From a virus, in IMG/VR virus record IMGVR_UViG_3300030101_000387, positions 1 through 54,801 of that record: a stretch of DNA of 54,801 nt, one strand, 5' to 3'. The translations under genes were made by a program, and so were the position numbers. Positions 44,368 through 50,964 of this stretch are shown here, in pieces; position 1 is the first letter of the stretch, and every line of letters begins with the position of its first letter. The notes beneath the pieces were generated by a model. It worked only from the letters and a program-made list of their open reading frames with translations. It was not told where the DNA came from and searched no databases.

Positions 44368-45047
44368 TGCCGTTTCTTACTAGCAGTATACCGTACTTCA
44401 AAGCATGGGTACGTAGAGAATACACGAAGAACTTAGAAGAATACCACGGAGAGTTTTTACATTGTATGGTCATAGGTGTGACCACTATGCCAAATAGAAC
44501 ATTAAGCTTTCAAGTTATGTTCACTGGATTCGAGTCAGACATAGATGATTCAGAGAATATACATGGCGGTGCAATGTGGGCAAGGATGCCTCTTACAGCA
44601 CTTGTAGCTGACACACCTTACGAAGAATGGCCTGAAGAATTACCTCCTTATCTAGCCCAGCCTTGGGATTGTATGTCTCATACGCATTCGGTATATAAAT
44701 TAGAGAGAGCAAGTCCTGCTCCTTGGATAGCTAAAGTTGATGGTGAGTTCTACCCAGCTAAATATTATTTTACGGTAGACTACACTAGTAACGAAGTAGC
44801 AGATGATCCTGCCCAGCATAAACAGTCTCACGTATTAGAGTTGTTAGATGCAGGAGAATACACAGGTAACATGGTTGCGTTACCCAATAATAGAGTGAGA
44901 GTAACTCACCCAGCTTGGTTTGAGACAGGACAAGGTGCTCCAGATTTTAGACCAAACCAACACATCTATAACTCAAAAGAAAACGTAGACTATGTATGGG
45001 ATACGCAACGAGTGTTTAACAATTTATATAGCGAGGAAGAACAATGA
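44367..45047 (+). CDS. Conserved-looking structural-region protein, unknown (226 aa)
   Basis: Strand-rich with conserved aromatic strings (FLTSSIPYFKAWVRREYTKN, then MWARMPLTALVADTPYEEWP, then HVLELLDAGEYTGNMVALPN, then HPAWFETGQGAPDFRPNQHI). It has no membrane segment. It is probably a folded beta domain found in tailed marine phages near the terminase. Its place before the terminase suggests a role in virion assembly. The name is not known to me. Confidence 0.66.
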   Translation: MPFLTSSIPYFKAWVRREYTKNLEEYHGEFLHCMVIGVTTMPNRTLSFQVMFTGFESDIDDSENIHGGAMWARMPLTALVADTPYEEWPEELPPYLAQPWDCMSHTHSVYKLERASPAPWIAKVDGEFYPAKYYFTVDYTSNEVADDPAQHKQSHVLELLDAGEYTGNMVALPNNRVRVTHPAWFETGQGAPDFRPNQHIYNSKENVDYVWDTQRVFNNLYSEEEQ

Positions 45048-45442
45048 AAAAGAAAAAGGGAATGGCCGTAGGTGGCATGAAGAAAAAGAAGAAAGGCATG
45101 GCCGTAGGCGGTGCTAAAATGAAGAAGAAGGGTATGGCTGTCGGTGGTATGAAGAAAAAAGGCATGGCCGTAGGCGGTATGAAGAAAAAAGGTATGGCTG
45201 TTGGGGGCATGAAAAAGAAGGGTATGTCCGTAGGCGGTTTGAAGAAAGCACCAAACAAAGGCGCAGCATCCTTACCTAAAAAGGTTCGTAACCAAATGGG
45301 CTTCATGTACGGTGGCGGTATGACATCGAAGAAAAAAGGCATGGCAGTAGGTGGGTTGGAAACTAGATCCAAAGGCAAAGCTAAAGGTGGAGCCAGAGGT
45401 GGTAGAGGCTTTCCTCATTTAATAAAAAGTAAACGTGGTTAG
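45044..45442 (+). CDS. KKKGMAVGG-repeat basic protein
   Basis: This 132-residue protein is built of seven or more short units of 8-11 residues, each ending GMAVGG or GMSVGG behind a run of lysines (residues 3-66). A globular linker with LPKKVRNQMGFMYGGGM follows, then one more unit, and a Gly/Arg-rich tail (GGARGGRGFPHLIKSKR). It is strongly basic with no acidic residue in the repeat. The DNA is an obvious tandem repeat. It probably binds nucleic acid or acts as an internal virion peptide. Its start overlaps the previous stop. Confidence 0.7.
   Translation: MKKKKGMAVGGMKKKKKGMAVGGAKMKKKGMAVGGMKKKGMAVGGMKKKGMAVGGMKKKGMSVGGLKKAPNKGAASLPKKVRNQMGFMYGGGMTSKKKGMAVGGLETRSKGKAKGGARGGRGFPHLIKSKRG
45050..45245 (+). 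repeat. Tandem coding repeats of the KKKGMAVGG protein
   Basis: Units of about 27-33 bases with the core GGTATGGCTGTCGG or GGCATGGCCGTAGG recur seven times, with silent differences and changes in lysine number. One more unit lies near 45331-45355. Copy number is likely to vary among relatives. Confidence 0.75.
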
Positions 45443-46406: not shown

Positions 46407-46778
46407 ATGACTAGAAACCTAACAGAGAAACAACAGAAATTTCTTGATGTCTTATTTGACGATGCAGGAGGAGATGTTGTAAAAGCAAAGAAACTAGCAG
46501 GGTACGGTGAACACTCTAGTACCACAGCTATTGTCGAATCCTTAAAAGATGAAATAGGGGATCGAACAAGAAGTTATTTTGCACGTACCGCACCAAAAGC
46601 TGCAATGGCTATGGTAGGTGCTCTGCATGATCCGACAGAGTTAGGCATACGAGATAAGATGTCTGCAGCAAAGGATTTGCTTGATAGGGCAGGTCTTGGT
46701 AAAGTTGACAGAGTAGATCTAACGTCCTCTAGTGGTGGCGTATTTATACTACCGTCAAAAGAAGGAAAGAACGAATAG
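46407..46778 (+). CDS. Terminase small subunit-like protein
   Basis: The protein has 123 residues. The N-terminus LTEKQQKFLDVLFDDAGGDV, then VKAKKLAGYGEHSSTTAIVE matches the helix-turn-helix start of phage terminase small subunits (LTxKQxxFLxxL, then A-x-x-A-GY). It would bind phage DNA and bring it to the large subunit. The C-terminus ends SSGGVFILPSKEG. Its stop overlaps, in the -1 frame, an open frame whose product begins AKYRESLGYWELP behind an ATA codon (see 46775-47200). Confidence 0.72.
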   Translation: MTRNLTEKQQKFLDVLFDDAGGDVVKAKKLAGYGEHSSTTAIVESLKDEIGDRTRSYFARTAPKAAMAMVGALHDPTELGIRDKMSAAKDLLDRAGLGKVDRVDLTSSSGGVFILPSKEGKNE

Positions 46779-47200
46779 CTAAATACCGTGAATCACTAGG
46801 ATACTGGGAACTACCAAAGCCACACAAGGGTGCAGAAAAAGAATGGCATGTAATAGCTAGAGTAACTAGAACAATACCCTTCGGTTATTCTGTGCATCCT
46901 GACAATGATAAGATACTTCAGCCCAATACCACAGAGCTAGAAGCATTGGAACTTGCAAAGAAACATCTAATGCAGTACTCATACAAAGAAGTAGCACTGT
47001 GGTTAACTAAACAAACAGGTAGATACATATCTGATGCAGGGCTAAAGAAGAGAGTAGACATTGAGCGAAAACGTAAGAAAGCAGCTACAATTAAACGCAA
47101 GCTTGCCAAAAGGCTCGAAGAGACGTTACAAGAGATCCAAAAGCTCGAAGAAGAATGTATCGGAGCTTATACAATCAAGCACAACGGAACAACAGCCTGA
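46775..47200 (+). CDS. Terminase-associated HTH module, no normal start codon
   Basis: This frame is open from 46733 to a TGA at 47198-47200. Its product AKYRESLGYWELPKPHKGAE, then KEWHVIARVTRTIPFGY, then YSYKEVALWLTKQTGRYISD AGLKKR (a helix-turn-helix, about residues 68-94) has strong protein character from codon 46778 on. The only ATG-like codon at its head is ATA at 46775, with GGAAAG well placed upstream; the first standard start is GTG at 46892, inside the conserved-looking part. I recall this module at the N-terminus of the large terminase of related phages. It overlaps the large subunit frame from 47061. Confidence 0.6.
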   Translation: MAKYRESLGYWELPKPHKGAEKEWHVIARVTRTIPFGYSVHPDNDKILQPNTTELEALELAKKHLMQYSYKEVALWLTKQTGRYISDAGLKKRVDIERKRKKAATIKRKLAKRLEETLQEIQKLEEECIGAYTIKHNGTTA

Positions 47201-48650
47201 TCAACAAGTTGTAGCAGCACAAGTCAAAGCGCCTGAGTTTGACGTTGAAGTTGCACAAGACATTGTGTTCCAACCAAACCCAGGTCCACAGACAGACTTC
47301 CTATCCGCATCTGAAAGGGAAGTTTTGTACGGTGGGGCGGCTGGCGGTGGCAAGAGTTTCGCAATGCTGGCTGACCCACTACACGGACTAAACGATCCAA
47401 ACTTTAGTGGTCTATTAGTTCGTCATACTACAGAAGAACTTAGGGAGCTTATACAAAAAAGTCAAGAGCTTTACCCTAAAGCAGTTCCTGGTATTAAGTG
47501 GAGCGAACGTAAGTCACAGTGGATTGCACCTAGAGGTGGCAGACTGTGGATGTCTTACTTAGACAAAGACATGGACGTAACACGATACCAAGGTCAAGCC
47601 TTTAACTGGATTGGCTTTGACGAGTTGACTCAGTGGCCTACACCCTACGCTTGGGATTACATGAGGTCACGACTTCGTTCTGCATATAGCTCTCAGCTAG
47701 GTTTGTACATGAGAGCTACAACAAACCCGGGTGGGAACGGACATCAGTGGGTCAAGAAAATGTTCATTGACCCTGCTCCTCCAAATGATTCTTTCTGGGC
47801 AACAAACATTGAAACAGGAGACATGATAAAGTTTCCTAAAGGGCATAGTCGAGAAGGACAGCCCTTGTTTAGGCGTAGGTTCATACCTGCAAGTCTGTTT
47901 GATAATCCGTACTTGGCAGACAGTGGTGATTATGAAGCAATGCTGTTGTCATTGCCTGAGCATCAAAGAAAACAACTGCTTGAGGGTAACTGGGATGTTA
48001 ACGAAGGAGCAGCGTTTCCTGAGTTCAATAGAAGCATACACGTTGTAGAACCTTCTGAAATACCTAGTGGTTGGGCTAAGTTTAGAGCCTGTGACTACGG
48101 CTACGGATCATACACAGGTGTGCTTTGGTTTGCTGTAACTCCCAGCGAACAATTAATTGTATACAGAGAGCTTTACTGTTCTAAAATTACAGCTACTGAC
48201 CTAGCAGATATGGTACTAGAAGCAGAGGCTGATGACGGCACTATGAGATACGGTGTACTAGATTCATCCCTCTGGCATAAAAGGGGTGACACTGGCCCAT
48301 CACTTGCAGAGCAAATGAACATGAAGGGTTGCCGTTGGCGTCCATCAGATCGCTCTCGTGGCTCAAGGGTTGCAGGTAAGAACGAGATACACCGTAGGTT
48401 GCAGGTGGACGAGTTCACCGAAGAGCCAAGGCTTGTGTTCTTTTCCACCTGCACGAATACCATAGCGCAAATCCCTGCGATTCCGCTAGACAAAAAGAAC
48501 CCTGAAGACGTTGATACAAATTCTGAAGATCACTTGTATGACGCACTACGGTACGGTATAATGACCAGACCTCGTAGTTCAATCTGGGATTTTAACCCAG
48601 CAAAACAAAACTCTGGCTTTCAGATGTCAGACTCGACATTTGGATACTAG
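47061..48650 (+). CDS. terL: Terminase large subunit
   Basis: This is the packaging motor. Walker A is LYGGAAGGGKSFAML (about residues 90-104 from 47061), Walker B is WIGFDELTQWP, coupling is ATTNPGG, and the nuclease acidic sites are ACDYGYGSYTGVL, YGVLDSSLWHKRGD and EDHLYDALRYG. There is no ATG before the Walker A motif; the frame begins only with TTG at 47061 or 47103 or GTG at 47265. The first about 40 residues from 47061 read like a shifted copy of the overlapping frame, so the true start is uncertain. It may be joined to the upstream frame by a +1 shift near 47190-47200. Confidence 0.9.
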   Translation: MSENVRKQLQLNASLPKGSKRRYKRSKSSKKNVSELIQSSTTEQQPDQQVVAAQVKAPEFDVEVAQDIVFQPNPGPQTDFLSASEREVLYGGAAGGGKSFAMLADPLHGLNDPNFSGLLVRHTTEELRELIQKSQELYPKAVPGIKWSERKSQWIAPRGGRLWMSYLDKDMDVTRYQGQAFNWIGFDELTQWPTPYAWDYMRSRLRSAYSSQLGLYMRATTNPGGNGHQWVKKMFIDPAPPNDSFWATNIETGDMIKFPKGHSREGQPLFRRRFIPASLFDNPYLADSGDYEAMLLSLPEHQRKQLLEGNWDVNEGAAFPEFNRSIHVVEPSEIPSGWAKFRACDYGYGSYTGVLWFAVTPSEQLIVYRELYCSKITATDLADMVLEAEADDGTMRYGVLDSSLWHKRGDTGPSLAEQMNMKGCRWRPSDRSRGSRVAGKNEIHRRLQVDEFTEEPRLVFFSTCTNTIAQIPAIPLDKKNPEDVDTNSEDHLYDALRYGIMTRPRSSIWDFNPAKQNSGFQMSDSTFGY

Positions 48651-48652
48651 AT

Positions 48653-48853
48653 ATGAAAACGTTTGTTGTTGTAATAAGTATGTGGGGTAATACAGGCACA
48701 GAATGGGTTTACACTGGTAACCAGTATGTTATGCAGGAACTGTTTACCAAAGAACAGTGTCAACAAATTGTTCAAAGTTCTAACTGGAAAAAGTACGAAG
48801 ATAATAAATACTACGGTTTGCAGTTTGATTGTTTTAATAAGGATGACCGCTAA
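48653..48853 (+). CDS. Small protein between terminase and portal (66 aa)
   Basis: Product MKTFVVVISMWGNTGTEWVY, then TGNQYVMQELFTKEQCQQIV, then WKKYEDNKYYGLQFDCFNKD. The N-terminal strand and two cysteines suggest a small folded domain. It starts two bases after the terminase stop, and its stop overlaps the portal ATG. This kind of gene is common in marine phages at this place; the function is not known. Confidence 0.68.
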   Translation: MKTFVVVISMWGNTGTEWVYTGNQYVMQELFTKEQCQQIVQSSNWKKYEDNKYYGLQFDCFNKDDR

Positions 48854-50964
48854 TGGCAGAAATAGACGATCTATCATTTGAGACAGATGAAGTAATTGCT
48901 GCAGAGAATCAAGAGGATACTCTTTTTTCTAGTGTAAGTAACGTTGTTACATTTGTTAATGACCGATACAAACGTGCAGAGGATGCTCGTAATGCTGACG
49001 AAGAACGTTGGCTTAGGGCTTACAGAAACTATCGTGGTATATATGGACCTGACGTTCAATTTACTTCTAGTGAAAAATCAAAAGTTTTTGTTAAGGTAAC
49101 CAAGACTAAAACACTTGCTGCCTACGGACAAATTGTAGATGTGCTGTTTGGCAACAATAAGTTTCCTCTTTCTATTGACCCATCAGTATTACCAGATGGA
49201 GTAGCAGATGCTGTCCACATTAATATTGATCCGAATGCTGAAAAAGCTACGGATGTACTTCGTGACTCGTTCACAAAAGAAACGACAAAACCGTACCTCA
49301 TAGGTCCAGACACAGAGTTAAAGCCTGGTGAAACTATGGCTGATCTTAGACGTAGGCTAGGACCAGTAGAGGATAAAGTAGCACCTGTTTCAGAAAAAAT
49401 AATAGAAGGTGACGGTAGCACACCTACAAGCGTAACTTTCCATCCTGCTATGATAGCAGCTAAAAAGATGGAAAAGAAAATACATGATCAGCTACAAGAA
49501 AGCGGAGCTTCCAAACACTTACGTAGTATGGCCTTTGAGATGGCGTTGCTAGGTACAGGTGTAATGAAAGGACCGTTTGCCGTAGACAAAGAGTATCCTA
49601 ACTGGGATGACGAAGGAGACTACGATCCGTTAGTAAAAACTGTGCCATCCACCAATCATGTATCAGTGTGGAACTTTTATCCTGACCCTGTTGCTTCCTC
49701 TATGGATGATGCAGAGTACGTAATTGAAAGACATAAGATGTCACGCAATCAGTTACGTGCTTTAAAAGGCAGACCATACTTTATTGATGACGCTATTGAA
49801 AGTGCGATAGACGCAGGACCAGACTACGTGCGTAAGCATTGGGAAATGAAGATGGAGGATGACGATACTGCTCCTTCAGACACAGAGCGTTGGCAAGTCC
49901 TAGAGTTCTGGGGGTACGTTGACACAGATATACTAGAAGAAAATGGTATCAACATTCCTGCTGATCTAAAAGATTTAGACGAGCTAAGTGCAAACATATG
50001 GATAGTTAATGGCAAAGTGATTCGCTGTTTGTTAAATCCATTTAAGCCTGCACGTATTCCTTACTACGCAGTTCCATACGAGCATAACCCTTACTCATTC
50101 TTTGGTGTAGGTATCGCAGAAAACATGGACGATACACAAACTCTGATGAATGGTTTCATGCGTATGGCCGTTGACAACGCAGTTCTTTCTGGTAACTTGC
50201 TTATTGAGATAGACGAAACTAACTTAGTACCGGGTCAAGACATGAGTGTGTATCCTGGCAAGGTCTTTCGCAGACAGGGAGGTGCTCCTGGTCAAGCCAT
50301 CTTTGGCACTAAGTTTCCAAACGTTGCAGGTGAAAACATGCAGCTATTCGACAAAGCAAGAGTATTAGCAGATGAATCAACTGGTTTCCCATCTTTCGCT
50401 CATGGTCAGACAGGCATTAGTGGAGTTGGCCGTACTGCTTCTGGCATTTCTATGCTTATGTCTGCTGCCAACGGTAGCATTAGGACTGTTGTAAAGAATG
50501 TAGACGATTATCTAATAGCACCTATAGGTAGAGCATTCTTTGCGTTCAATATGCAGTTTGACTTTGATGAAAGTATTCGTGGAGATCTAGAGGTTAAAGC
50601 TAACGGTACTGAAAGCCTCATGGCTAACGAAGTACGTAGTCAACGCTTGATGCAGTTCTTACAAGTAACATCAAATCCAATGTTAGCACCTTTTGCAAAG
50701 ATGGATTATATTGTACGAGAGATTGCTAAGAGCATGGATCTAGACCCCGACAAAGTTACAAACTCTATGGCTGATGCTGCAATACAAGCTGAAATCATGA
50801 AAGGTTTCCAACAACCTATGCCTGAGCAACCACAGGCCCAACCTCAAGAAGAGACACCTGCAGGAGCAGACGTGCAAGATCCTACAGGAGCAGGCGGTGG
50901 TAACATAGGTACAGGCGTAGCACCAGCCCCAGATGAACAAGGTTTTAGCGGTAATGTCGCTTAA
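48853..50964 (+). CDS. Portal protein (head-to-tail connector)
   Basis: The protein has 703 residues, the length of podoviral portals. It starts right after the terminase block. Features are a long helical wing region (FVNDRYKRAEDARNADEERW, residues about 35-60), WNFYPDPVASSMDDAEYVIE (about 274-293), and a stem/crown region with FGVGIAENMDDTQTLMNGFM (about 417-436) followed by the C-terminal acidic/Pro-Gln-rich tail (about 655-703). Twelve copies would form the DNA channel at the vertex. It overlaps both neighbours. Confidence 0.85.
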   Translation: MAEIDDLSFETDEVIAAENQEDTLFSSVSNVVTFVNDRYKRAEDARNADEERWLRAYRNYRGIYGPDVQFTSSEKSKVFVKVTKTKTLAAYGQIVDVLFGNNKFPLSIDPSVLPDGVADAVHINIDPNAEKATDVLRDSFTKETTKPYLIGPDTELKPGETMADLRRRLGPVEDKVAPVSEKIIEGDGSTPTSVTFHPAMIAAKKMEKKIHDQLQESGASKHLRSMAFEMALLGTGVMKGPFAVDKEYPNWDDEGDYDPLVKTVPSTNHVSVWNFYPDPVASSMDDAEYVIERHKMSRNQLRALKGRPYFIDDAIESAIDAGPDYVRKHWEMKMEDDDTAPSDTERWQVLEFWGYVDTDILEENGINIPADLKDLDELSANIWIVNGKVIRCLLNPFKPARIPYYAVPYEHNPYSFFGVGIAENMDDTQTLMNGFMRMAVDNAVLSGNLLIEIDETNLVPGQDMSVYPGKVFRRQGGAPGQAIFGTKFPNVAGENMQLFDKARVLADESTGFPSFAHGQTGISGVGRTASGISMLMSAANGSIRTVVKNVDDYLIAPIGRAFFAFNMQFDFDESIRGDLEVKANGTESLMANEVRSQRLMQFLQVTSNPMLAPFAKMDYIVREIAKSMDLDPDKVTNSMADAAIQAEIMKGFQQPMPEQPQAQPQEETPAGADVQDPTGAGGGNIGTGVAPAPDEQGFSGNVA

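Follow-up and report, generated by a model that had tools for sequence, protein, structure and literature searches.

The large terminase of the phage analysed here is split, and probably takes the form of two overlapping genes that are initiated independently of each other: an upstream gene for a helix-turn-helix (HTH) protein, which would start at an AUA codon, and terL, which would start at a UUG nested within it. It is likely that the AUA, fused as it is to the preceding stop codon (AUAA or AUAG), provides a packaging gene of a large and abundant marine phage group with a start that is weak by design and coupled to termination. Phages of the HMO-2011 type rank among the dominant phages of the ocean (PMC9038755).

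Organization and conservation of the terminase genes

The window (the whole stretch of DNA analysed, a viral record of 54,801 bases) belongs to an HMO-2011/CRP-type podovirus. Its TerL is 88-89% identical to those of Roseobacter phages CRP-2 and CRP-603 and 74% identical to that of HMO-2011, and is homologous to HMO-2011 gp52 (73.8% identity across residues 62-529). The genes are ordered terS, HTH gene (-1 frame), terL (frame 0) and portal (Table 1), so that the window has the HMO-2011-type arrangement of a separate, overlapping HTH gene upstream of TerL in the -1 frame. The terS product has a profile match to phrog_2538, terminase small subunit (E 7e-4), and is orthologous to the annotated TerS proteins of CRP-2, CRP-603 and CRP-207; the terL product matches the profiles of phrog_979 (E 1e-56) and Terminase_6N. 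Elsewhere in the window, an ORF at 45044-45442 consists mostly of tandem Lys-rich repeats (MKKKGMAVGG-like).

Table 1. Coordinates of the terminase region and adjoining features in the window.
Feature	Coordinates	Strand	Remarks
terS (small terminase)	46407..46778	+	ORF; ATG start; ends AAC GAA TAG
Open -1 frame	46733-47200	+	Encodes AKYRESLGYWELP...
AAAGAAGG, Shine-Dalgarno-like element	46758..46765	+	Within the 3' end of terS
Proposed AUA start codon of the HTH gene	46775..46777	+	Overlaps the terS stop (ATAG)
HTH gene	46775..47200	+	141-codon protein; putative detached N-terminal module of the large terminase
terL (ATPase/nuclease)	47061..48650	+	TTG start at 47061, nested in the HTH gene
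Dual-coding overlap, HTH gene/terL	47061..47200	+	140 nt
GCC-TGA	47195..47200	+	HTH gene stop; shift site proposed in the first-pass annotation
Portal protein gene	48853..50964	+	3' of terL; SU10_portal (E 7e-25), phrog_332

Both modules are present in 408 non-redundant loci. In 336 of these the frame of the HTH module is offset by exactly -1 from that of TerL, in 71 the two form one continuous ORF, and in one the HTH module is in the +1 frame, which makes that locus the sole exception among the 337 split loci. The split is found in the cultured isolates CRP-1, 2, 9, 13, 207, 345, 603 and HMO-2011. The HTH module is a conserved protein family (336 loci), the layout recurs far beyond chance, and third-position changes in the HTH frame outnumber those at second positions about sixfold (29.9 versus 5.2 changes per codon).

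A first-pass annotation of this DNA had offered a split gene, programmed recoding or an assembly error as explanations for the missing ATG of terL, and of these the split gene stands. The probability that the layout reflects a sequencing or assembly error, or a decayed gene, is next to nil: nothing that would favour either was found, the same layout occurs in cultured isolates and in hundreds of independent contigs (336 of 337 non-redundant split relatives), and the third- and second-position changes of the HTH frame also speak against it. The comparative data already refute such a reading.

The HTH protein and one-piece terminases

The upstream module, which the first-pass annotation had likened to the N-terminus of related large terminases, is indeed homologous to the N-termini of the one-piece TerL proteins of CRP-235, CRP-212, Rhizobium phage RHph_N3_19 and Sinorhizobium phage phiM6 (hhalign probability 97.8%, E 8.6e-13), and because of this homology we regard the organization as a split terminase gene. 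AlphaFold predicts (pLDDT 81) helices at residues 52-64, 70-81 and 87-127 of the HTH protein, i.e. a helix-turn-helix followed by a 41-residue helix. Comparison of the protein with Pfam, PDB sequences and PDB folds gave no significant match. The module (46840-47050, and likewise the N-termini of L088 and L090) has the PFGY...REVA.WL...GR.IS layout of serine-recombinase DNA-binding domains; matches to these domains are weak and, for the window's own HTH protein, below significance. The phrog_95 integrase profile matches two relatives (E 4e-4 and 1.5e-3), PF07508 matches phiM6 below the cut-off (E 0.06), and Foldseek returns serine integrases only at E of about 1.

The HTH protein is presumably the DNA-binding N-terminal domain of a TerL that was once in one piece; now detached, it would act in trans in the packaging motor, a DNA-contacting role suggested by the position of the module at the N-terminus of the one-piece enzymes. 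We infer that it assembles with TerL.

The nested start of terL

As described in the first-pass annotation, the TerL frame contains no ATG ahead of the Walker A motif, and the candidate starts TTG 47061, TTG 47103 and GTG 47265 are all present, preceded by a TAG at 47055-47057. The list was incomplete, as an in-frame TTG at 47325 had been overlooked, but this codon is too near Walker A to matter as a TerL start. The open -1 frame, its overlap with terL and the GCC-TGA are likewise as described (Table 1).

All 336 split loci have a start codon (261 TTG, 73 ATG and 2 GTG) either at the homologous position or no more than a few codons away from it. This position is fixed: it follows closely on an in-frame stop and precedes Walker A by about 282 nt. 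TerL of HMO-2011 as deposited starts at the codon homologous to TTG 47061, which is there an ATG. The HTH residue that overlaps the TerL start varies (I, V, N, H or Y), whereas its codon almost always has the form NNT with GA after it, such that (T/A)TG is preserved despite the change of residue. Counts of Ile ATT at this position are partly circular, since a start codon was searched for, and counts in aligned columns were used instead: TTG or ATG occupies the aligned start column in 281 of the 284 loci in the tree. On the same tree, third positions of the HTH frame changed 29 times in the codon immediately before the TerL start and twice at the start itself, with means of 29.9 changes per codon upstream and 11.9 over the overlap.

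The TerL frame is free of stop codons throughout the overlap in all 336 loci, and in 113 of 113 after thinning. When synonymous codons were redrawn, with corrected HTH ends, about three stops were expected and the frame was open in only ~5-7% of shuffles; upstream of the TerL start, stops in the TerL frame are as many as expected or more. The comparisons thus reveal selection for both the TerL start codon and the open frame. Because the start codon is kept, silent variation collapses there and the TerL frame is open, the evolutionary record places the start of TerL at UUG 47061, within the HTH gene.

The first-pass annotation had suggested that a +1 move at GCC-TGA might join the two frames. 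A programmed, RF2-like +1 frameshift at this site, fusing the HTH module to TerL, is in keeping with the +1 register of the frames, with the existence of one-piece relatives and with retention of GCC-TGA within the window's own subclade, but we consider it very improbable. Were ribosomes to shift at the HTH stop, the context of that stop should be conserved and the TerL frame ahead of it free of selection; the opposite is observed. GCC-TGA occurs in only about 40 of the 336 loci, the codon and stop at the HTH end being diverse (AGT-TGA, GCC-TGA, GAG-TGA, GGT-TGA, AAC-TGA, AAT-TAA and others, with TAG also among the stops), so that no conserved shift-prone codon precedes an in-frame stop; no shift site shared among relatives was seen in the 336 loci, and the HTH stop wanders freely between about -163 and -58 nt from Walker A. 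Nor is the TerL frame without a start or open stretch of its own upstream, as selection on it runs from -282 onward, beginning at the TTG and not at the HTH stop; a late shift needs neither a start codon nor an open TerL frame 140 nt earlier. From codon-anticodon reasoning, the P-site Ala codon GCC would also re-pair poorly with CCU. The frameshift is rejected in favour of separate initiation at the nested UUG, and relatives have what the first-pass annotation had itself named as evidence against recoding: a separate conserved gene (HMO-2011 gp53, HTVC115P gp79) and a terL started by TTG or ATG at the homologous codon.

The start of the HTH gene

The first-pass annotation did not remark that the HTH module itself is without a normal start codon. 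In the window, no ATG, GTG or TTG precedes the conserved part of the HTH gene. The terS/HTH junction is readable in 287 loci, and in each of the 168 of these that have no ATG, GTG or TTG nearby, the window included, terS ends in GAA TAA or GAA TAG, creating an in-frame ATA that overlaps the terS stop (junction motif GA-ATA-A/G). Five further loci have the ATA together with a distant TTG, and with these the tree contains 172 ATA-type loci. Loci with a normal start mostly have GAG at that terS codon and an ATG or GTG five bases after the stop position, and the HMO-2011 clade has an ATG that overlaps the terS stop or closely precedes it (ATGA type), at the same position as the ATA. In 51 loci there are just one or two open codons of the HTH frame ahead of the ATA, and in 49 the ATA is the sole ATA, ATT, ATC or CTG before the module; no other conserved codon was found before the module in the HTH frame, and no later codon is conserved.

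Silent changes at the junction are equally restricted. The terS Glu codon that creates the ATA has undergone no GAA/GAG change on the tree (172 ATA-type loci), whereas the remaining conserved Glu columns of TerS, HTH protein and TerL have, with few exceptions, undergone 3-23. The Glu column within the Shine-Dalgarno (SD)-like element shows one change, and one more Glu column, in the dual-coding overlap, also has no GAG, which dual coding would explain. Recent common descent alone does not account for conservation of the ATA, because amino-acid identity in the HTH protein falls as low as 52% among the ATA loci (60% nucleotide identity). The element AAAGAAGG lies 9 nt before the ATA (10-17 nt upstream) and is essentially invariant, each base being at least 0.99 conserved in the 172 ATA-type loci; the mean anti-SD duplex energy reaches its minimum (-4.5 kcal/mol) in windows ending 6-8 nt before the ATA, so that the best pairing falls at the standard distance (-7). 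Selection for the ATA and for the SD-like element is evident from these site-wise patterns. An independent-pairs sign test of absence of a canonical start against presence of the ATA gave 3-4 informative pairs, all in the expected direction and not significant alone; with few independent switches between ATA and canonical starts on the tree this test has low power, and the case rests on the site-wise silent constraint.

The HTH gene thus appears to begin with AUA, a very rare start codon, which no fewer than 172 distinct viral sequences have kept. Some 46 loci have two ATA codons in a row (ATAATA), and the exact start is ambiguous there. Within the window the HTH gene is alone in this, other long ATA(A/G) overlaps lying mostly near a following ATG or being coincidental. 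The weak start is probably preferred by selection, because replacing one A of the terS stop by G (GAATAA to GAATGA) would give AUG with TerS unaltered, yet none of the roughly 227 loci in the ATA clade has an ATG overlapping the terS stop.

Two other explanations for the junction were weighed. It is improbable, though the less so of the two, that the HTH gene starts at another, unrecognised codon near the terS end and that the ATA is a by-product of a conserved Asn-Glu-stop C-terminus. Asn-Glu is conserved in terS generally, and the AAC (Asn) before the last Glu is invariant in ATA-type loci and nearly so in loci with ATG at +5, a silent conservation (window 46770-46774 and homologous terS ends) that an AUA start alone does not account for. 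However, the Glu codon is GAG in loci with ATG or GTG at +5 and never in loci lacking a canonical start, and the HTH frame ahead of the module holds no further conserved candidate. Still more improbable is a TerS-HTH fusion made by -1 frameshifting just before the terS stop, with no initiation at AUA. The HTH frame is -1 relative to terS, the purine-rich SD-like element lies upstream and an RAACGAATAR block is invariant, as such a shift might have it, but there is no X_XXY_YYZ site, a slip would require tRNA-Glu to leave GAA and pair with CGA, it would be confined to within two codons of the ATA in 51 loci, and sister lineages start the same gene with an ATG or GTG of its own.

We therefore favour initiation on the AUA itself, and infer from the evolutionary pattern that it is coupled to termination of terS, with low expression as its purpose. 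A ribosome ending terS at UAG or UAA would be held by the SD-like element and re-initiate on the overlapping AUA (AUAG or AUAA), yielding modest amounts of the 141-residue HTH protein, while other ribosomes would initiate out of frame at the nested UUG (AUG in HMO-2011) to make TerL. Some 40-50 codons would be read in two frames, and the HTH protein and TerL would act together in the packaging motor, the former in trans. Translational re-initiation and stop/start overlaps are established in bacteria (PMC2268962, PMC9955659).

Implications and comparison with known systems

The open-access papers searched contained no report of AUA starts in phages, nor any of the split arrangement in phages of the HMO-2011 type. 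The HTH gene is missed or truncated by gene callers restricted to ATG, GTG and TTG. The GenBank record of CRP-207 has only a fragment of it (2476-2634 called) and a TerL lacking about 65 residues, apparently because ATA was not accepted as a start; in this genome (MZ892987.1, region 2221-2696) TerL is annotated from 2696 as against the TTG at 2501. If the AUA is a start, these loci would rank among the broadest sets of natural AUA starts to have been tested by evolution, and would offer a clean system for stop/start coupling, in which one base separates AUA from AUG with TerS untouched. The nested UUG suggests how overprinting can serve a split terminase gene as an alternative to re-fusion or recoding.

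Natural AUA starts have been shown by ribosome profiling in Staphylococcus aureus infC and ccpN, and with a strong SD an AUA start in S. aureus gives roughly a tenth to a third of the output of AUG (PMC13009471). As in the proposed HTH gene start, the AUA of infC and ccpN is conserved, has a strong upstream SD and reduces expression; those genes are chromosomal and ribosome-profiled, whereas the HTH gene is a phage gene with a stop/start overlap, and its AUA is read from evolution. The RF2 (prfB) +1 frameshift shares with the window a sense codon before an in-frame TGA and the +1 register, but the site in the window is not conserved and the start codon is conserved instead.

Among terminases, the TerL proteins of CRP-235, CRP-212, RHph_N3_19 and phiM6 are built of HTH module, coil, ATPase and nuclease, arranged as in the window, but in one continuous ORF with no split or overlap. 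Pelagibacter phage HTVC115P has, like the window, a separate (and annotated) HTH gene before TerL (gp79 and gp78), but the two genes only touch, at a TAATG junction, and both are ATG-started. The split is therefore a gene fission, since the two parts are a single protein in CRP-235 and the products of separate genes in HTVC115P. Pelagiphage HTVC033P has an unannotated HTH ORF (~1992-2328), out of frame with and overlapping an ATG-started TerL, and the nested overlap may thus predate the CRP/HMO group. HMO-2011 itself, with gp53 (hypothetical) and gp52 (TerL), shares with the window the gene order, the out-of-frame HTH gene, which overlaps TerL by 122 nt, and the homologous TerL start codon; in HMO-2011 both genes are ATG-started at these positions, whereas the window uses ATA and TTG.
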